From NCBI GenBank assembly GCA_015075625.1, contig JABTTZ010000001.1, forward strand, positions 496,001 to 560,000: 64,000 nucleotides of DNA, in the 5' to 3' direction. How positions within the stretch are numbered: position 1 is the first letter of the stretch; each line of letters begins with the position of its first letter. The position numbers were made by a program, and so were the translations under genes. The notes below the pieces were generated by a model. That model was not told where the DNA came from. It made no database searches and saw nothing but the letters and a program-made list of their open reading frames with translations. Below, piece after piece: positions 9,610 through 45,366 of the stretch. The DNA comes from Anaerolineales bacterium. GTDB lineage: Bacteria > Chloroflexota > Anaerolineae > Aggregatilineales > UBA2796.

Positions 9610-12600
9610 ATGTCCAGCCCAACCGATGGCAAAATCCGTATCCTATTCCTCGCGGCAACCCCCCGCGCCACTGATCCTCTCCAACTTGGGGAGGAAGTGC
9701 GCACCATTGATGAACGCCTTCGTGCCGCCCAATTTCGGGATCGTTTTGAACTGACTCAACATTGGGCGGTACGCCTGACCGACCTCTCCGAATTGCTCTT
9801 GCGTCATCAGCCGCACATCGTCCATTTTTCCGGGCATGGCAGCACACAGGGCGAGATTGTCCTTGAGGATGCCAAAGGACGCCCCGTCACTGCCCCTGCC
9901 GCCGTCCTCAGCGATCTCTTTCGTATTTTGAAAGACAACGTGCGCTGTGTGATTTTGAATGCCTGCTGGTCGCAAACCCAAGCGGAAGGCATTGCCGCCG
10001 AGATTGACTGTGTGATCGGCATGGCGCGGGAGATTGACGACGACGACGCGCTCAGTTTTGCCGGTGGGTTTTACCGTGCGCTTGGCTATGGGCGCAGCGT
10101 TGCCGAGGCATTTGACTTGGGGCGAAATGAACTCGCCCTCAGCGATCTTTCTGCCGCTGCGACGCCACATCTGATCACGCGGCGGGTCGATGCCAGTGCC
10201 ATGCGCTTTATCGAAAGCGCAATTCCCCTACCGATGACCGCAGAGACGGTAGATGCCCTGCTCACCTCTGTGTTCATCTCCTATTCCCGCGCCGATAAAC
10301 CCTTTGTGGATCGTCTGACGAATGATCTAAAGGAAAACGGGGTTGATGTCTGGGTGGATACGCTAGGGCTAAAGCCCGGCACGCGCAACTGGGAACAGGC
10401 GCTGCGGGAGGCGATCCGCCTCGCCCGCTCCGTCTTGTTGGTCGCCTCCCCCAATTCACGCCGCTCGGTTTATGTTCAAGACGAACTCGCCATTGCCGAG
10501 ATGTATAACCGTGAGGTGATCCCCATCTGGGCAGATGGCGATACATGGATGGACTCGATTGCGATGGGGATGGGCAAGCGCCAATTTGCCGACCTTCGCG
10601 GCAATCATTACGCAGCGGGGTTCGCGCAGGTGGTGGAAGTCCTCACCGGGAGAGCGCCCCTACCCATCCCCGAAAAAGCGCCGCCAGAAACGCCCGATTT
10701 CCCCCCCCGCAATCCGTACAAAGGGCTGCGGGCGTTCAAAGCGGATGATCAGGCTGATTTTTTCGGGCGCGATGAGGTCATTGCCGCACTCACAGCGAAA
10801 ATCGAACAGCCTTCAACAGAGAGTCGTCTTGTAGCGATCCTCGGCGCGAGTGGGTCAGGAAAATCGAGTGTTGCCATGGCGGGACTCCTCCCCGCGCTCC
10901 AACGCCGTCACCCCGATTGGGTCTTTCTGCCGACGATTGTCCCCGGTATCCACCCATTGGATCGCTTGAATACGGCGCTCTCAGAGGCATTTCACCAAAC
11001 GACGGCGCACATCCAAAAGGCGCTTGACGATCCCTCGACACGCGGGCTACATCTCTTGACGACGCAGCATGTTGGACGCGGGGAGCGCCGTGCCGTCCTC
11101 TTGATCGACCAATTTGAGGAACTTTTTACCCAAACGGCGGACGAGCGTGAACGCGCCGCCTTCATCGATCTCATTACGACGGCGGCAAGCGAACCCAACG
11201 GGGCGCTAATCGTCATCCTCACCATGCGGGCAGATTTCTATGATCGCCCGATGAATTATCCCGAATTAGGGCGGCTGATCAGCAGCGGCGCATCCCCCAT
11301 CTTGCCCATGTCTCTGACCGATCTGCGGGACATCATCGAAAAGCCGGCGGCGCTCCCAGACGTACAAGTGACCTTTGACGAGGGGTTGGTTGGCGAGCTT
11401 GTCTTTCAACTGCGCGAACAAGTTGGCGCTCTCCCACTGTTGCAATTCACCCTCGATCAGCTTTTCGAGAAGCGCGAAGATCGCCGCCTAACGTGGCATT
11501 CTTACGATGCCATTGGCGGGGTACATGGGGCGCTGGCGCGGCACGCCGAAGCAACCTACATGGGGCTACCTACCGAGCGCCACCAAGCGCTGGCGCGAAT
11601 TTTATTCCTCCGCCTGATTGAACCCGGCGCCACCGAACAAGATACCACCCGCCGCCGTGCGCCGCTGAGCGAACTACGCCTGCCCGACCCCACCCAAAGC
11701 ACGCTCTTGGCAGAGGTGCGCGATGCGTTCGTGGAAAACCGCCTGCTGACGACGAACAAACATGACACGATTGAGACCATTGAGGTCAGCCACGAGGCGC
11801 TCATTCGGGAATGGGTGCGCTTGGGGGATTGGCTGAACAGCGCCCGCGAAGACCTTCGCTTTCAGCGCGGTTTTGCCCTTGATGTTGCCGATTGGCTGCG
11901 CAAGAACAAACCCAAAGACGATTTGTATCGCGGGGTGCGCCTCTACGAAGCCCAAACATGGGCAGCAAAAGCGGAAAACGCCCCTAGCGACGATGAGATC
12001 GCCTTCATCACTGCCAGCGCCGAAGAAGCCGCCCGCCAAAAGAAACTTCAAGAGGGGCTGGAACGCCGCGCCCGCCGCCGGACGCGCATCGCGTTGGGCA
12101 TTTTTGCCCTTGCTGTGCCGATCATCGCGGTGATCGCCCTTGTCGCGTTGAACAGCGCCCGTGTCTCGGCAGAGAATCAGCGCCGCTCGGAGAGTCTGCG
12201 CCTTGCCGCTGACGCTATTTTGCAAACGGACATTCGTCAAAGCGAGACGGTGGCGCTGCTCAGTATTCGGGCGTTGAAAAATACCTATTCCGTGCAGGCG
12301 GATGCGGCGTTGGGACGCGCCCTCGAAAACTTGGGAACAATCCGCATCTTTGGTCCGTACAGAGATGCCTACGCCAAGAACAAAGCCGGGCATATCCAGC
12401 GCGTCCGCGCCGTTGAACTTCTGAAGGATGGCAAGACGTTCGTCAGCGGCGGCTACGACAATTCCGCCCGCTTGTGGGAGCTAGAAACAGGGCGCGAACT
12501 CCAAATTTATCTTGCCGATGAAGCCGTCCTTTGTGTAGCTGTCTCCCCCGACGAACGCTATATCGCTGGCGGAACATACCGAGGGACAATCTTCATTTGG

Positions 12601-15393
12601 GATCGGGCAAGCGGGGAAGTCGTCCGAAAGTGGTACGGGGAGGCAAACCAGATTTTGGGTGTCGCCTTCTCCCCCGATGGATCGCGTCTGCTTTCAGGTG
12701 GGGCAGATCGCTTGAATTTGCTGAATGTTTGGGATGTGGCAACTGGCACAGGTATTCGCTCTGTGCGGGGGCATAATGATTACATCACAAGCATCCATTA
12801 CTCGCCTGATGGCTTCAGCATCCTCACCACAAGTGCCGATTACACTGCCCGTCTGTGGGACGCCAATACCTTTGAGGTGATCCGCGTCTTCAGTGGACAC
12901 ACGCTCGAAGTGATGGCGGGGGCGTTCAGTTCTGATGGACGCTATATCCTTACAGGCAGCGTCGATAATACCGCCCGCTTGTGGAGTGTGACTCAAGGGG
13001 CAGAGGTGCGCCGTTTTGTTGGGCATACGGATACCGTGCGGGCGGTTGCCTTCAGTCCTGATGGGCGTTATGCCGTCACCGGCGGGCAGGATAATCTCGC
13101 CCGCTTGTGGGATGTCACTGATGGGACGCTCTTAGGAACGCTCGTTGGGCATGGACAGTCAACCGATATTGACTTTACCCGTTACGATTACAGCATTCGT
13201 GTTGCCGACGATCAGCCGCGCCAAGCGGGGGCGGTGGATGCCGTTGTCTTTCACCCCAACGGAACGATGATCTTGACTGGGGGACGGGATGGGACAATCC
13301 GCTTATGGACATTCCTTGCCCGAAAATTCATCGGACACAGCGATGCCATTAGCCATGTCGCCTTTAGCCCTGATGGAAAATACATCCTCAGCGGGGGGCT
13401 GGATCGCACCGTTCGTTTGTGGGATGTGCTCAGCGGCTCGGAAGTTCGGCAGTTTGCTGGGAGTATCTTTGATATCTACCATGTTGCCTTTGCCCCTGAT
13501 GGTAAGTACGTGGCGGCGGGTGGCAAAGACGGCGCGACCCGAATTTGGGAAACTTCTACTGGGTCGCTCTTGCGGCAAGTCCCCCCGCCAGAGACGTGGG
13601 ATTCGGCTACGTCCTCAACAATCTGGAGCATCGCCTTCGCCCCTGATGGCAAAACCCTTCTCACCGCAGATGAGGAAGGAAACATCATCGCGTGGGATGT
13701 TCTCAGTGGGGCAAGAAACCTCCTCTATACGCCCCTTGATTCCCAAGCCAATCTAAGCGGGGGGAGTAGATACTGGAATAACACACAAATTTTTGATCTC
13801 AATTTTTCCCCAAATGGCGGCTATGTACTGAGTGCGGCAAACGACACCACTGCCCGCTTGTGGCTGCCCGAACAGGGCAAAGATATTCGTTGGTTTGTTG
13901 GGGAGACACTGGCGGGTGTCTACAGTGCGGCAATGACCGCCGATCATCGCTATGTGGCAACCGGCGGTGTAGACCGTGTGGCACGGCTTTTTGAGGTCGG
14001 GCGCAGTAAAATGATCCGCGAATTTCGCGGTCACACCGATTCGATCCTGAAGGTTGCCTTTTCCCCCGATGATCGATTCCTCTTGACGACCAGCAAAGAC
14101 GGCACAGCGCGGCTGTGGAATGTCGAAACGGGTGAGGAAATCCGCCGCATGGTGGGGCATACGGGGGCTGTTCTTAGTGCCGCCTTCAGCCCCGATGGGG
14201 CGTACATTGTCACAGCAGGGGCAGACGGGCTGCTCCGTTTGTGGGACACGGATTACCTCAATTTCGTGCGCTTTGCTTGCCGCCAACTCGCCCGTGATTT
14301 TACCGAGGGGGAACGGACTGCCTATGCCATTACGGATAGTGCGGCAACTTGCCCCACAGAGAGTAACCCCGCCGGACTCCCCCCGGCGTGGACGCCCGTC
14401 CCCACCCGCAGCGCACCGCCAAGTGTCCCGCTAGGGACGCTTGTCCCCCCCGCGCTGCCCCCCAATACGATCATGGAATATCGGGCGGATCTTATCCGCG
14501 ATTTTAGCCTGTTCCCCGATGGATCACGCTTAGCGCTCTACACGAACGGCATTGTGAAGATTATCGATAGCGAGAGCGGAAAGGAACTGCAAGAATTAGG
14601 GACACCGCAAAAAGGGAACGGCTATTATTTCGGCGGGGCAAAGATCACCCCTGATGGGCGCTATGCCTTGATCCGTACCGATAGCGACGACATTGAACAG
14701 TGGGATGTTCAAGATCGCTACCGTGTCCGCACCTTCGCCACGAAGCGCTATCCGGGCTTTGAAACCTATCTTTTGCCTTCTGCTGTGGGTAAGACACCCT
14801 ACTTTGCTGTTTCGACGTGGGAAACGTGCGTTGTCATTGACCTGACAACGGGGGCGCGTGTTTTAGAAACAGAAGCGGGCTCCCCTTGTGTATTTTCCCC
14901 CGATGGCACACGGATAGTCGATAACAGCTACACCATCTACAACGTCGTCACCGGGCAGAAAGAGCTAGTCCTCAGGGGCGTCCCCATGCGCAATCGCGCC
15001 CCATTGATGCTGGATAACAACACCGCCCTTATCGCCTATACTACGCAAGCCAATGGGGTGGCGCTATCCCTTTGGAACAGTGATACGGGGAAGGTGCAAG
15101 CGGTCTTGGCTCACCCCATCACCCCCCCCGCTGGTCAATATACGCAAGCGATCCTCAGTTACCGGATTATGCCCGATGGCCGGTATATGCTGACGAGCGC
15201 CATTGATAATGCCTTGCGTTTGTGGGATATGCAGGATGGCACGCTGCTGCGCACCATCCGCCTAGAGACAGGCGTTAGCCCTGAGCCTTATCCCCCCACC
15301 ATTCTTGCTATTGCGCCGGATGGAGAAAGCGCGTTTATCCAGATAGGAGGCTTGGGAATCATCCGACGGGTGCGCCTGACAGCCGCCCCCTAA
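9610..15393 (+). CDS. CHAT protease - TIR - STAND NTPase - transmembrane - WD40 multidomain protein
   Basis: A 1927-residue protein. Residues 1-200 are a CHAT-type (caspase-like) peptidase: HFSGHG gives His76 and ILNACWS gives Cys119 as the likely catalytic pair. Residues 219-347 are a TIR domain (VFISYSR at the start) with a candidate catalytic Glu292 in VQDELA. NPYKGLRAF leads into an nSTAND1-type NTPase with Walker A GASGSGKSS (412-420) and Walker B AVLLIDQFEELF near 500. A hydrophobic segment at about 825-848 would anchor it in the membrane. Then come about 14 WD40 blades (to about residue 1550, ending in ARLWDV-like strands), a Pro-rich linker and a degenerate third propeller. By analogy with bacterial NLR-like proteins, WD40 senses, STAND oligomerises, and TIR/CHAT act as NADase and protease. 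Function and trigger are inferred. It stands alone, with no partner gene closely spaced. AAGGGG precedes the ATG. Confidence 0.88.
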   Translation: MSSPTDGKIRILFLAATPRATDPLQLGEEVRTIDERLRAAQFRDRFELTQHWAVRLTDLSELLLRHQPHIVHFSGHGSTQGEIVLEDAKGRPVTAPAAVLSDLFRILKDNVRCVILNACWSQTQAEGIAAEIDCVIGMAREIDDDDALSFAGGFYRALGYGRSVAEAFDLGRNELALSDLSAAATPHLITRRVDASAMRFIESAIPLPMTAETVDALLTSVFISYSRADKPFVDRLTNDLKENGVDVWVDTLGLKPGTRNWEQALREAIRLARSVLLVASPNSRRSVYVQDELAIAEMYNREVIPIWADGDTWMDSIAMGMGKRQFADLRGNHYAAGFAQVVEVLTGRAPLPIPEKAPPETPDFPPRNPYKGLRAFKADDQADFFGRDEVIAALTAKIEQPSTESRLVAILGASGSGKSSVAMAGLLPALQRRHPDWVFLPTIVPGIHPLDRLNTALSEAFHQTTAHIQKALDDPSTRGLHLLTTQHVGRGERRAVLLIDQFEELFTQTADERERAAFIDLITTAASEPNGALIVILTMRADFYDRPMNYPELGRLISSGASPILPMSLTDLRDIIEKPAALPDVQVTFDEGLVGELVFQLREQVGALPLLQFTLDQLFEKREDRRLTWHSYDAIGGVHGALARHAEATYMGLPTERHQALARILFLRLIEPGATEQDTTRRRAPLSELRLPDPTQSTLLAEVRDAFVENRLLTTNKHDTIETIEVSHEALIREWVRLGDWLNSAREDLRFQRGFALDVADWLRKNKPKDDLYRGVRLYEAQTWAAKAENAPSDDEIAFITASAEEAARQKKLQEGLERRARRRTRIALGIFALAVPIIAVIALVALNSARVSAENQRRSESLRLAADAILQTDIRQSETVALLSIRALKNTYSVQADAALGRALENLGTIRIFGPYRDAYAKNKAGHIQRVRAVELLKDGKTFVSGGYDNSARLWELETGRELQIYLADEAVLCVAVSPDERYIAGGTYRGTIFIWDRASGEVVRKWYGEANQILGVAFSPDGSRLLSGGADRLNLLNVWDVATGTGIRSVRGHNDYITSIHYSPDGFSILTTSADYTARLWDANTFEVIRVFSGHTLEVMAGAFSSDGRYILTGSVDNTARLWSVTQGAEVRRFVGHTDTVRAVAFSPDGRYAVTGGQDNLARLWDVTDGTLLGTLVGHGQSTDIDFTRYDYSIRVADDQPRQAGAVDAVVFHPNGTMILTGGRDGTIRLWTFLARKFIGHSDAISHVAFSPDGKYILSGGLDRTVRLWDVLSGSEVRQFAGSIFDIYHVAFAPDGKYVAAGGKDGATRIWETSTGSLLRQVPPPETWDSATSSTIWSIAFAPDGKTLLTADEEGNIIAWDVLSGARNLLYTPLDSQANLSGGSRYWNNTQIFDLNFSPNGGYVLSAANDTTARLWLPEQGKDIRWFVGETLAGVYSAAMTADHRYVATGGVDRVARLFEVGRSKMIREFRGHTDSILKVAFSPDDRFLLTTSKDGTARLWNVETGEEIRRMVGHTGAVLSAAFSPDGAYIVTAGADGLLRLWDTDYLNFVRFACRQLARDFTEGERTAYAITDSAATCPTESNPAGLPPAWTPVPTRSAPPSVPLGTLVPPALPPNTIMEYRADLIRDFSLFPDGSRLALYTNGIVKIIDSESGKELQELGTPQKGNGYYFGGAKITPDGRYALIRTDSDDIEQWDVQDRYRVRTFATKRYPGFETYLLPSAVGKTPYFAVSTWETCVVIDLTTGARVLETEAGSPCVFSPDGTRIVDNSYTIYNVVTGQKELVLRGVPMRNRAPLMLDNNTALIAYTTQANGVALSLWNSDTGKVQAVLAHPITPPAGQYTQAILSYRIMPDGRYMLTSAIDNALRLWDMQDGTLLRTIRLETGVSPEPYPPTILAIAPDGESAFIQIGGLGIIRRVRLTAAP

Positions 15394-23870: not shown

Positions 23871-25910
23871 TTATTCCTCACCGGATTCGTCAGGGGCATC
23901 CTCGTTAATGGTGGGTTCTTCATCGCTGATAAAGGATGCCCATTTCCCGTGCATCCCATCCTCAGTGACACCATAGAAGATGCGCAGTTTCCCCTGATCA
24001 CGCAGCACAAGGTCATAGCGGATCATACCGCTACGTCGATAACGTTTGCGCAAGCCATAATCGCCCTCCCATTGAACAGCTTTCGCTTGGAGGGGCTTTG
24101 TCTCATGCTCAATAATGGCATAGTGCCACAGTCGCCGCGCCGAACTACGGGTGACATTCTTCACAACGGCTCCCTTTCGGAGGTCACGCATGACGTGGTA
24201 TTGTTCGCCTTTGCGTGTTTCCGTTCCCACAATCTCTACGCCTGTGCGGGGAGCGGTGTTGCCCATCATCGGGGGGGCGGGCGGCAAGGGTGCATCATCA
24301 GCGGCGGAATCGTTTTCGTTGGCAAGGGGGCTGGCGGCGGGGGATGCCTCTGGCTGTCCTTTTCCGCCACGCCCTCGGCGGCGGCGGGCTGGTGCTGTGC
24401 CATCCTCAGCCGGCGCTTCGGCGGCAACCGCCACTACTGGCGGCGCAACCTCAACGGGCGCGGTGGATTGTCCTCGCCGCCCGCGCCCACTTTCCCCTTG
24501 CGCGGGACGTTCGCTCTGCTCTGGAGGCGTCTCTTGGCGCTGTGCTTGACGCGGTGGGGAAGATTGACCCTGAGTGATGAGCGCGGCGGCATTGGCGGCG
24601 TACTTTTTCTGCACCAAACCAACGATCTCGTCGCGCACGGCGAGGCTGGTTTCCGTCTCCTCGCGGACGTAGATTTTGTTGTCATCAATCGCATAGGGCG
24701 GATCGTCTCCGCGTGGGATGCGAAGGCGAATCACCGTTTTGCTGCCCGTCTCTTGGGCGTCAATCTCCACCTCTAGGGTGGGGTTAATGCGGTGGCTGAT
24801 CTCCGTTTGAAGTGTTTCGATGCTCTCGCCAACGTTGGAGACGCCAACGGGCGGGATCGTTAAATCATGCGAGACACCAATGTAAACTGTCCCCCCATTT
24901 GTGTTGGCAAAGGCGCACACATCGGCAAGGACGCCGTAAAGTCGCCCACCCTGCCGCGCCATCGAATCGTGGAAAGATTGAACGATGCTCGGTCCTGCCT
25001 CACGCGCTGATTGAATGTGATCGTAGACCTCTGTCCCTGTGCCGCGATAGGGGCGTGTGCGGGCGAAATCGTTCCCCCGGATCACCTCAAAAATTGCCTC
25101 AAAGGTGCGTTCGGGCAGGAAAATCTCGGTGATGCGGTCACCCACACCGGGGTTGCGGTCTCCGCGCTGGTCGCGGACGAGGCGATGGGCATCTGAGCCT
25201 TGAATACAGCGCATCCGACGGGGGTATTCGGGTTTTGTGCCATCGAAGAAGCGGGCGGTGGTGCTGCGTCCGCGCCGATCCAAATCGGTCACTTCAAGGG
25301 CATGAAGGTGGGCATCTTGGGTGTAGGCAATGCGTGTTTGCCCGCCGAAATCGAAGCCGCGCATAGCAACCCCGTGTGTTGAATTTGCGTGGGCAGCAAT
25401 GACCATCCCGCCGGCATCATTGATGATACGGTATGCGGTCAGCACATCGGAAGATGCCCCCACTGCTGGATTGCCTTCATCCAAAATGGCGGGGGGGACA
25501 CGCAGGCTAAGCAGCACATGCTCAATCTGCCGAACGGGGACACTGGGCGAAAAAAGCCCCAAAATGTGAAAGCCAAAGGTCGCGGTGAACTCGAACCCCG
25601 GCAAGACGAGGATTTTATCCAGCAGGCGTTGGTATTCGGCAAGGCGGCGCTTTTCTTCGGGGAGCGCCCGTTCCCGTTTGGTGAGCATCTTTAGCTCATG
25701 AATTTCATCGAGCATAGCCGCATAGCCGCGCACGGTGTTGTGATCGGTGAAAGCGATAATATCCAGCCCGCGCATTTCGGCACGGCGTAAAATATCAAGG
25801 ATGGTCACGTTCGGCTCTTGATAATCGAGCGAGCCGGGCGTATGAAGATGCAAATCCATACGATACCACTGCATCTTCTTGGATTTTTGTGTAGTCGGTT
25901 TGTTACTCAT
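23871..25910 (-). CDS. PHP metal-dependent hydrolase fused to AlbA_2/Schlafen-type nucleic-acid-binding domain
   Basis: A 679-residue protein. Residues 15-300 are a PHP phosphoesterase-like domain: HLH (His21, His23), FTDHN (Asp57, His58), AAHANSTHG near 190 and GSDAH near 262 supply the metal ligands. Residues about 318-440 match the AlbA_2 (divergent AAA_4/Schlafen-like) domain ([24 protein letters not shown]). A Pro/Ala/Arg-rich disordered linker (about 445-565) precedes a C-terminal domain I do not recognise ([12 protein letters not shown] region). It may be a nucleic-acid-directed phosphoesterase or a regulator; the function is inferred. It is the last gene of the hsp20-lon-receiver group, 29 bases after the receiver. 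Confidence 0.8.
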
Positions 25911-41637: not shown

Positions 41638-44600
41638 CTATCGTTGACTGACTAAGGTTTGAATCGCCTCGTCGCTGGTCAGCGTTTTGCCTCGGATAAG
41701 CGCTGCTTGAATAGGAGCAGGTCGGGCTTCCTCAGGATAATTTTCCTCAAATTCCGCCCAAAGGGTTGTAAAGCGCCTCTTTTGCCCGCCGCTGAAGGCG
41801 GGATGGACTTCTGCCGCCCCTAACAACACCGCTGCCCGTTCGCCATCGCCCGGCGCTCCGCGCATTAAGTTGAGTTGGGCAAAGAGCATCAACGCATCTA
41901 CCACTATACCCGATGCGCCGATTTCCTGCGCGAGACTGACCGCCTCCCACCCGGAATCCCCTGCGCCGGGAAGATCGCCCGCTTGCAAGCGGGAAAATCC
42001 TCGGTTAATTAAGGTTGTCGCTGCCCCGGCGCGATCTCCCATCTCACGGAAAAGCGCCAAACTCTCGCTGAAATGAGTCTCTGCCGCCGCATGGTTGTTC
42101 TGGGCGGCGGCGGTGATTCCCAAGCCATCCAAGCCGTTGGCAATTGCCCGCCGGTCTCCGATCTCCCGCCCGATGCTCAAACATTCGGCGTAGTATGCTT
42201 TCGCCCGATTATAATCACCCAGATCATAGGCAACAAAGCCAAGGTTGTTCAAACTGCTGGCAGCCCCTTTGCGATCCCCAATCTCGCGCTTGATGTTCAA
42301 ACTTTCTTCATAATATTGCGCGGCGCGGGGATAATCGCCCGTGCGGTAGGCAATTGTGCCGAGATTGTTCAGGCTAAAGGAAATCCCCCGCCGGTCATGA
42401 ATTTCATTTTGAAGCGTCAGACTGCGCTCGTAATGTTGGCGGGCATTCTGATAATCCCCTAACGCGGATGCCACCGCCCCCAGATTATTCAGGATGATGT
42501 TCATCCCCAAGCGGTTGCCAATCTCGTGCCAAATATCAAAGGTTTCGCTGTAGCGGGCGCGGGCAAGGGGGTAATCGCCCCGCGCATAGGCAACATTTGC
42601 CAAGCTAGTGAGTGCGGCGGCAATCCCTGCACGGTCTGCCAACTCGCGGCTAATGAAAAGGCTGTCCTCATAGTGGCGGGCAGCGTTGCTGTAGTCTGCC
42701 CGTGCGTAAGCGATGTTGCCCAAATTGCTGAAACTGGCGGCAATCCCGCGCCGATCCCCCGCCTTCTGCGCTAGGCTAAGGGCGGCGCGTGCCTGTGCCT
42801 CGCCACGCTCATAATCGCCCCGGCGGTGGGCAACAGCGCTTAAACCGTTGTGCGCCCGCACTTCAAGGGCGGGGGTTGCCGCGCCGCTTTCCAGCGCCTC
42901 CATAAAGCGCATTTGCGCTTCGGGGTAATCGCTTGTCCGTTCCGCCGTTTCGCCAAGCGCCACCAGCGCCTCAACGCGGCGGGCGTGGTCGGTTGGCGGC
43001 AGCAGCGCCAGCGCCCGCGTAAAGAGCTTTCGCGCTTCGGAAAAGAGTGAACGGAGGGCAAGCTGCTCCCCCGTCAGGGTGGCATAGTGCGCTTCTTTAT
43101 CGCGTTCGCCCGCCGCCTTCCAATGATCCATCAGCAGCGGCGCGTAGGCGTCATCTCCCGCATAGATGTTTTCAATTGCCACACCGATGCGGCGGTTTGC
43201 CTGAGCATATTCGGCACTATCCATGGTTTCTAAGAGCGTCATACGCAGTTTTTCATGGGCAAATCGCCAGCGTCCGTCATTCACCTCTAAAACGGCGGCG
43301 TTCACACAGGCGGCAAGCCACCCTTCTACGTTTAGAGTGGGATCAAGGTGAGCGATCACGTTTAGATCGACGAACCGTCCGCCCGCTGCGGCTAGACGCA
43401 GCAAGGGTTGGGCGATCAGCGGCACACGGGCGATACGTCTGAGCAAAATCGACTTGATGCCGCCCGACAAGACATGATCAGGGAGCGTCGCCCGCCCGAT
43501 TGCCCCCAGACTTCCCGCTTCCTCTGCCAACGCCCGAACAACCTCGACCATAAAAAGGGCGTTGCCTTCTGTCTCATGCTCCAGAAGGTTGATCAGGCGG
43601 GGCTGCGTCCCTGCCTCGCCAAGCATGGACTGGCTGAACGCAACGATCTGAGCGGTGTCAAAGCGTTCTAGGGTGAGCAAGCGCATTTCCGGGAGTTCGG
43701 CGGGAAGTTCGGGACGTTCGTCGTCACGATAACTCCCAATAATCATCAGCGGCAGGTCGCCCACCGTCTTGATCATCAATTTCAAGGGATCAAGGCTTTC
43801 CGTCACCCATTGTAAATCTTCAGCAATCAAGAGTATCGGACGGGCATAACGCCGGAACAGATCAAGGATGGTCACGGCGAGGCGCTGCTCTGCCGAACGC
43901 CCATCGAGCGCTGGCGCATCAGGGATGGGACGATCTAGCAAGGCGGCTATATCGGGGATGATGGACTTCAGTGTTCCAGCGTCAAGGTCGTTCACCTCGG
44001 TAGAGAGGAGTAAACGGCGCACCGGATCACGCCAAATCTGGTAGGCAAGCCCCCCGTTATCCACCGCTTGCCCAGTGAGGACAAGGGCACCATTGACGAG
44101 CGCCATCCCGCGAATTTCATCGATTAGGCGCGATTTTCCCACGCCGCTTTCCCCCCCCACCAGCCACGCCGACCCCTCGCCGCGAATGGCGGCATTGAGT
44201 GCCGTTTGAAGCGCTCCCAACGGGCGCTGCCGTCCGACAAATTTTGCCGCCGCCAAGAAGCTCTCGCGGGCGTTGGCGTTCTCGGCAAGTTCCGGCAGCC
44301 CTGTAAGGGCGGCAAGATCATGGAGGGCATCGCCCGCATCGCCATAACGATCTTCAGGAACTTTCGCCAATAGACGCCCCACAAAGGCACGAAGGTGGCT
44401 TGGCGGGGTGGTCGGTTTACGCTGTCCTTCGGGTGGAGTCCCACTCACCTCGGCAAGGGGGATAATCGGGCGGGTGGCGCTGATCAAATCAGCCGTTTTG
44501 GGAACTTCAGCGGCGACGAATGTTTTTGTTTCTTCATCAAGTGGCAGCGACCCTGCGTGAGTGGATGAATCGGGGAGAATGATCGTGATTCCTTCGCTGT

Positions 44601-45366
44601 GGGCACTGCCGCCTGTATAAAGCCGAGGGGCATCAGGATCAAGTCCCTCTGGAATGGGCGTCAGGTCTGGAAGCATGGCGATGATTTGGCGCATCATCAC
44701 TTGTGGCGTGCCCGTTTCAAAAGGATAGCGCCCCGCTAGAAGTTCATAGGACATAACGCCGACGGCATATAAATCCGTTGGGATCACCGGACGATGCCCA
44801 TGCAGTATTTCAGGGGCAAGGTAGGCTAAGGTGCCAGCAACACCGATCGCCTTTTCGGATTCAATGGCAAGCCCAAAATCGAGCAGGCGCAGCACGCCAT
44901 CGGGCGTAACAAGGACATTGCCCGGCTTCAAATCGCGGTGGATGATTCCCTGTCGGTGTAAGTAGCGGAGCGCCTCCAACATTTGGGCGATCAAGCCCAC
45001 CCGCCCCCGTAAATCGAAGCGCTCCGCCGCCTCACGGACATCCACCGCCCCTTCCAAAAGCGGCATGGTGAAGTAGGGCTGCCCGTCCATGGCAAAGCCG
45101 TAATCCAAGACGCTGATGATATTGGGGTGGCGCAGCGAGGCAAGAGTCTGAAACTCGCGTGCCAGCGCCAGACGGAGATCGACCCGCTCAGGGTGCAGCC
45201 CAAAAACAAGGGCAGAGGTCTCCACCGAGACGCGCTTCAAGGCGACGACCTGCCCATTAAGGCGATCCGATGCCCGATAAACGCTCCCCATCCCGCCCGA
45301 TCCAAGCAGTTCCATCAGCACATAGCGGTTGTTGATCAAAGATTGGCTGCCGATGGTCATGATCAT
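41638..45366 (-). CDS. Serine/threonine protein kinase - AAA ATPase - TPR fusion protein
   Basis: A 1242-residue signalling protein. Residues 14-265 are a eukaryotic-type kinase: glycine loop LGSGGMGSVY, Lys44 in VALKRV, HRDLKPGNV near 140 and DFGLA near 163, all intact. A linker (about 270-370) leads to an AAA_16/ORC-like ATPase with Walker A GGESGVGKSR near 407 and Walker B-like ILLIAEDLQW. From about residue 800 a series of roughly 40-residue TPR units repeats the pattern GDY-x-x-A...YEESL...GDR-x-G...LNNLG, very alike to each other and close to LGN-type TPRs. It is cytosolic, with no membrane helix. It would bind a partner by TPR, oligomerise by AAA and phosphorylate targets. It starts 10 bases after the membrane-protein gene. 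Confidence 0.88.
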   Translation of the reverse strand: MIMTIGSQSLINNRYVLMELLGSGGMGSVYRASDRLNGQVVALKRVSVETSALVFGLHPERVDLRLALAREFQTLASLRHPNIISVLDYGFAMDGQPYFTMPLLEGAVDVREAAERFDLRGRVGLIAQMLEALRYLHRQGIIHRDLKPGNVLVTPDGVLRLLDFGLAIESEKAIGVAGTLAYLAPEILHGHRPVIPTDLYAVGVMSYELLAGRYPFETGTPQVMMRQIIAMLPDLTPIPEGLDPDAPRLYTGGSAHSEGITIILPDSSTHAGSLPLDEETKTFVAAEVPKTADLISATRPIIPLAEVSGTPPEGQRKPTTPPSHLRAFVGRLLAKVPEDRYGDAGDALHDLAALTGLPELAENANARESFLAAAKFVGRQRPLGALQTALNAAIRGEGSAWLVGGESGVGKSRLIDEIRGMALVNGALVLTGQAVDNGGLAYQIWRDPVRRLLLSTEVNDLDAGTLKSIIPDIAALLDRPIPDAPALDGRSAEQRLAVTILDLFRRYARPILLIAEDLQWVTESLDPLKLMIKTVGDLPLMIIGSYRDDERPELPAELPEMRLLTLERFDTAQIVAFSQSMLGEAGTQPRLINLLEHETEGNALFMVEVVRALAEEAGSLGAIGRATLPDHVLSGGIKSILLRRIARVPLIAQPLLRLAAAGGRFVDLNVIAHLDPTLNVEGWLAACVNAAVLEVNDGRWRFAHEKLRMTLLETMDSAEYAQANRRIGVAIENIYAGDDAYAPLLMDHWKAAGERDKEAHYATLTGEQLALRSLFSEARKLFTRALALLPPTDHARRVEALVALGETAERTSDYPEAQMRFMEALESGAATPALEVRAHNGLSAVAHRRGDYERGEAQARAALSLAQKAGDRRGIAASFSNLGNIAYARADYSNAARHYEDSLFISRELADRAGIAAALTSLANVAYARGDYPLARARYSETFDIWHEIGNRLGMNIILNNLGAVASALGDYQNARQHYERSLTLQNEIHDRRGISFSLNNLGTIAYRTGDYPRAAQYYEESLNIKREIGDRKGAASSLNNLGFVAYDLGDYNRAKAYYAECLSIGREIGDRRAIANGLDGLGITAAAQNNHAAAETHFSESLALFREMGDRAGAATTLINRGFSRLQAGDLPGAGDSGWEAVSLAQEIGASGIVVDALMLFAQLNLMRGAPGDGERAAVLLGAAEVHPAFSGGQKRRFTTLWAEFEENYPEEARPAPIQAALIRGKTLTSDEAIQTLVSQR

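Follow-up and report, generated by a model that had tools for sequence, protein, structure and literature searches.

A Chloroflexota protein that joins CHAT and TIR domains to an nSTAND1 switch, a membrane helix and WD40 repeats looks like an adaptor-free fusion

The window analyzed here is a 64,000-nucleotide stretch of the genome of an Anaerolineales bacterium. It contains a gene that begins with ATG, runs without an internal stop and encodes an unusually composed multidomain protein. The gene and its parts, all on the + strand, are as follows.

9610..15393, +: complete open reading frame, CHAT-TIR-nSTAND1-TM-WD40(14)-beta region, 1927 aa
9631..10218, +: CHAT caspase-like putative protease domain, about aa 8-203 (Pfam core 28-169), from Pfam, fold and dyad conservation
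9835-9837 and 9964-9966, +: the CHAT dyad, His76 and Cys119
10264..10638, +: TIR domain, about aa 219-343, from Pfam TIR_2, fold and Glu conservation
10483-10485, +: Glu292 at the TIR catalytic position; Tyr288 replaces the Trp of WxxxE
10714..11916, +: nSTAND1 NTPase switch, aa 369-769, from Pfam PF20703 and motifs
12088..12144, +: predicted transmembrane helix, aa 827-845, from hydrophobicity; net charge +7 before and +2 after
12364..14247, +: 14 WD40 blades, aa 919-1546, from a repeat profile and Pfam
14248..14490, +: Cys-containing segment and Pro/Thr-rich linker, aa 1547-1627, similar in a same-genome paralogue
14500..15390, +: third all-beta, propeller-like region, about aa 1631-1927, low confidence, from weak Pfam propeller matches and AF2 strands

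A preliminary description of this DNA had placed CHAT, TIR, a STAND NTPase, a membrane helix and a WD40 array in this order, and Pfam matches above cut-offs, fold and conservation all agree with it. The domain search that it proposed recovered CHAT (PF12770, aa 28-169, 42.7 bits against a Pfam cut-off of 24), TIR_2 (PF13676, aa 221-341, 88.2 bits against 28), nSTAND1 (PF20703, aa 369-769, 363 bits against 27) and WD40, which lies far above threshold in 12 separate stretches. By their E-values these matches are beyond chance. The switch contains a P-loop (GASGSGKS, aa 412-419) with the P-loop lysine (Lys418) and a Walker B motif (VLLIDQFEEL, aa 496-505); profile and motifs together mark it, at the sequence level, as an nSTAND1-type STAND NTPase. 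The best NTPase model is nSTAND1 and not the NACHT clade of bNACHT proteins, and PADLOC matched CHAT, TIR and generic models and no Avs-named model. An NCBIfam search of the N-terminal half returned nothing informative, and Pfam detected no EAD family in the first 367 aa.

The hydrophobic helix is single and strong (2.96 on the Kyte-Doolittle scale). Past it, the repeat profile finds 14 WD40 units, as many as first estimated, which are expected to form two seven-bladed propellers. One further good unit, at aa 1835-1873, is the only clear WD unit in the third all-beta region, where AF2 strands have a pLDDT of about 60; the AF2 model of the WD40 part (pLDDT 59.5) is too low for counting propellers there. 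A DNA-level search found no tandem repeats in the gene, so the blades were not recently amplified. We considered an assembly chimera and find it unlikely, given one continuous frame, an even G+C content of 55-60% and CHAT+TIR pairs in other genomes.

Structure prediction gave an AlphaFold2 model of residues 1-360 with a mean pLDDT of 88, in which, as the preliminary description would lead one to expect, both effector-type domains resemble known folds. The CHAT model matches the type III CRISPR SAVED-CHAT protease (PDB 8tl0) with Z 23.1 over 194 residues, with the GHG and LNAC motifs aligned, and caspase-6/7 with Z of about 13. SAVED-CHAT differs in being switched on by a filament of its SAVED domain and in having no STAND switch. 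The best fold matches of the TIR model are the SPARTA and SARM1 TIRs (Z 14-17), NADases with which it shares the glutamate position; MyD88 and MAL TIR filaments are also among the matches. A common fold is not proof of activity for either domain. The TIR_2 profile and fold assign the second domain to the TIR class, and the profile, the caspase-like fold and the His-Cys dyad assign the first to the CHAT class as a putative protease.

The catalytic residues named from the sequence were found at exactly the positions given for them, and they are intact in both domains. His72, His76, Asn117 and Cys119 are invariant across an alignment of 16 diverged CHAT relatives, and Glu292 is kept in 14/14 TIR relatives. 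The Trp of WxxxE, present in the AbTIR-type and Cat1 sequences aligned for comparison, is Tyr288 here; across the 14 sequences of the family this position is Tyr in nine, otherwise Asn or Ser, and never Trp. NAD cleavage by this TIR is therefore plausible rather than assured. The earlier proposal of a dual NADase and protease output gains from the retained glutamate and loses from the replaced Trp, and remains plausible.

Housekeeping genes surround this singleton gene, which lies outside any defense island, between sugar-phosphate dehydrogenase and response-regulator genes (identities from translations). The genome (4.68 Mb in five contigs) was searched by family and region. It encodes a paralogue, L030, with the architecture EAD8-TIR-nSTAND1-TM-WD40, whose TIR and nSTAND1 are 58% and 60% identical to those of the window protein and whose linker past the WD40 array is likewise Pro/Thr-rich. 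The window CHAT occupies the exact place of EAD8 in this paralogue. On another contig (L029), a gene for an EAD8-TIR-NB-ARC-WD40 protein is followed after 163 bp by a gene for an EAD8-CHAT protein, with a CHAT 55% identical to the window CHAT. The EAD8 domain of L030 and the two of L029 are the three confident EAD8 domains that a profile search finds in this genome; among 400 sampled Chloroflexota genomes, four have EAD8 above the cut-off. The same genome also encodes two kinase-nSTAND1-TM-WD40 paralogues (L031, 5669-10327; L032, 8770-13896).

The split arrangement recurs in relatives. In the same genus and family, CHAT domains of the window subfamily are carried by EAD8-CHAT proteins (L119-L123; for L121 and L123, EAD8 was assigned solely by BLAST similarity to the L029 EAD8). 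In the same order, one genome has EAD8-CHAT, 54 bp and then EAD8-DUF4062-nSTAND1 (L126; the EAD8 of its CHAT protein scores 23.2, slightly under the Pfam cut-off of 27), and another has EAD8-calcineurin and then EAD8-CHAT (L125). In two same-family genomes the EAD8-CHAT type gene lies immediately 5' of an ftsK/spoIIIE-like gene (L121, 543-5947; L122, 617-6242).

Other genomes encode further combinations of these parts. Cyanobacterial plasmids have a CHAT-nSTAND1-WD40 protein (L111) and a CHAT gene that overlaps an nSTAND1-WD40 gene (L112), and L115 is a TIR-nSTAND1-WD40 protein. Plasmid3 of Nostoc carneum NIES-2107 encodes CHAT-C14 caspase-nSTAND1-WD40 (L113, 3489-7682; BAY35572.1, annotated as a diguanylate cyclase), which places two protease folds on one switch. 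A protein of 2247 aa from the same order as the window genome is a protein kinase-TIR-nSTAND1-WD40, with the kinase in the CHAT/EAD8 slot (L132, 1893-8636). Two-module N-termini before nSTAND1-WD40 thus recur, as CHAT-caspase in Nostoc and as kinase-TIR in the same order. CHAT and TIR also occur as a pair alone (L034-L036), with AAA_35 (CHAT-TIR-AAA_35, L049), after NB-ARC-TPR (L038), and with TIR ahead of CHAT (L033, L040). These pairs are scattered over separate branches of the CHAT tree, so the pairing probably arose more than once.

A survey of CHAT plus TIR before a STAND switch, which the preliminary description had suggested, thus finds the parts and the dual modules repeatedly, and the exact CHAT-TIR-nSTAND1-WD40 architecture in one genome only, among 154 genomes of the order, 396 of the class and 400 of the phylum. 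Because the class search (396 genomes, 770-aa query) scored two candidates per genome, this rarity leans mainly on the order-wide search (up to 13 scored) and the CHAT-only search (up to 8 scored). No plasmid record covered 80% of the N-terminal half of the protein, and a literature search by the term 'CHAT-TIR' found no paper. The protein combines known nSTAND1 conflict-protein parts in a new way and is not a new kind.

Since split versions bearing EAD8 exist in the same genome and in relatives, we read the window protein as what looks like a direct fusion of parts that are elsewhere joined via EAD8 adaptors. The earlier term 'self-contained' suits it well, as the relatives hold the same modules split. 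According to a published proposal (Kaur et al. 2020, PMC7159879; 2021, PMC8195603), EADs bring in effectors through homotypic contact, and this idea was applied to an EAD8/nSTAND1/trypsin locus (PMC10907252). The fusion of CHAT is the outcome predicted by the recruitment proposal of Kaur et al. In the CHAT tree the window CHAT is not sister to the EAD8-CHAT protein of the same genome (L029), which we therefore dropped as the donor; the source of the fusion may be another.

The occurrence in one genome of the split form (EAD8-CHAT and EAD8-TIR-STAND) and an adaptor-free fused form allows a Rosetta-stone argument, by which CHAT would be a natural output of such STAND sensors, and provides a ready-made test pair. 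The fusion indicates that parts which relatives keep separate and link by EAD8 probably work together. In front of one nSTAND1, CHAT recurs together with TIR or a caspase, and a kinase together with TIR; such pairing of two modules suggests coupled outputs.

The charge around the helix bears on where the sensor lies. In 9/9 nSTAND1 proteins whose helix is clear, the N-side flank is more positive than the C-side flank. Three TIR-nSTAND1-TM relatives (L041, L042, L043) have choice-of-anchor Q or POMP-type C-termini, which are surface-type modules, in place of WD40. From the positive-inside flanks, these surface-type C-termini and the Pro/Thr-rich linker, we infer that the effectors and switch are cytoplasmic and the WD40 sensor external. 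If so, the protein would be a receptor for outside signals, not a sensor of phage proteins in the cytosol, and would differ in this from cytosolic NLR and Avs sensors. 'NLR-like', as the protein had been called, is right for the switch but would be less apt for the position of its sensor.

We put about even confidence in the reading that this is a membrane-anchored nSTAND1-class STAND receptor for conflict or programmed death, with CHAT hard-wired in the EAD8 slot. The WD40 propellers, probably outside the membrane, would bind a ligand, and the cytoplasmic nSTAND1 would exchange nucleotide and oligomerize, gathering the TIR and CHAT domains. Proximity would activate the CHAT protease and probably an NAD-consuming activity of TIR, and damage to proteins and NAD could lead to cell death or arrest. 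In the relatives, the EAD8 adaptor would bring in an EAD8-CHAT protease that is a protein of its own, whereas here CHAT is fused in that position. Topology, oligomerization, activity, trigger and outcome are all inferred. We hold more tentatively, as possible and no better than that, the specific version in which a single-chain transmembrane death receptor passes a signal from external WD40 through nSTAND1 so that CHAT and TIR fire together, with a protease of the EAD8-recruited type fused to the receptor. We found no biochemical or phage data for any close relative, and an antiviral role is unproven.

The replaced Trp, the MyD88 and MAL filament matches and the constancy of TIR between nSTAND1 and an interchangeable N-terminal part (EAD8, CHAT, kinase or none) are what a scaffold would show. 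In that reading CHAT is the sole enzyme and TIR a structural, MyD88-type oligomerization domain that arrays CHAT proteases. We find it rather doubtful: Glu292 is invariant, NADase TIRs are the top fold matches, and in four proteins (L127-L130) TIR is the sole recognizable N-terminal domain and should be the output there. CHAT may also cut its own chain or that of paralogues, either freeing TIR from the membrane through a cut in the linker or activating a second effector in the manner of an initiator-executioner cascade. The homologue from Nostoc, in which a C14 caspase accompanies CHAT at this position, the closest solved CHAT (a SAVED-CHAT filament protease) and the membrane tether of the window protein are consistent with such a role, which we nevertheless think unlikely.

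The two kinase paralogues, the kinase-TIR relative in the same order and the chromosomal housekeeping surroundings fit a signaling or developmental receptor with no role in defense or death. We judge this improbable, as outputs of protease and TIR type, accompanied by EAD8 relatives, are characteristic of the conflict systems in the literature (PMC7159879, PMC8195603), and occurrence is patchy even inside the genus. Some nSTAND1-WD40 or related proteins (L055 and that of the L029 gene) have no TM helix, which would suit a cytoplasmic WD40 array, with the helix as a peripheral or re-entrant anchor and the whole sensing phage proteins in the cytosol like a classical NLR. The consistent positive-inside bias, the Pro/Thr-rich linker and the surface-anchor-type C-termini of relatives speak against such an arrangement, and we doubt it.

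The nearest described systems are the EAD-bearing nSTAND1 conflict systems (Kaur et al., PMC7159879, PMC8195603), which share the nSTAND1 switch, an N-terminal effector or EAD slot and a C-terminal sensor, and EAD8 relatives of the window protein occur in its own genome and order. It differs from them in lacking an EAD, in having CHAT in the place of EAD8 and two effector-type modules, and in placing WD40 repeats after a TM helix where theirs are FGS or CLec sensors. A Nostocales plasmid CHAT-nSTAND1-WD40 protein (ARV63383.1) also has CHAT at the N-terminus but no TIR or other second module, and BAY35572.1 has a tandem second effector-type domain that is caspase-type and not TIR. TIR-nSTAND1-WD40 proteins (L030; Caballeronia WP_213234664.1) have the common core, with nSTAND1 identity of up to 60%, and EAD8 or nothing where the window protein has CHAT. 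The tripartite plan of effector, switch and repeats is shared with Avs and bNACHT antiphage STAND proteins and with APAF-1, which also uses a WD40 sensor. Unlike these, the window protein has an NTPase of nSTAND1 type and not of the Avs, NACHT or NB-ARC clade, a TM helix and dual N-terminal modules.

Elsewhere in the window, a gene at 41638-45366 (- strand) encodes a protein of 1242 aa with the order protein kinase-AAA_16-TPR, a further architecture that resembles a sensor with a switch. The product of a gene at 23871-25910 (- strand) is 679 aa long and contains a Schlafen AlbA_2 domain.
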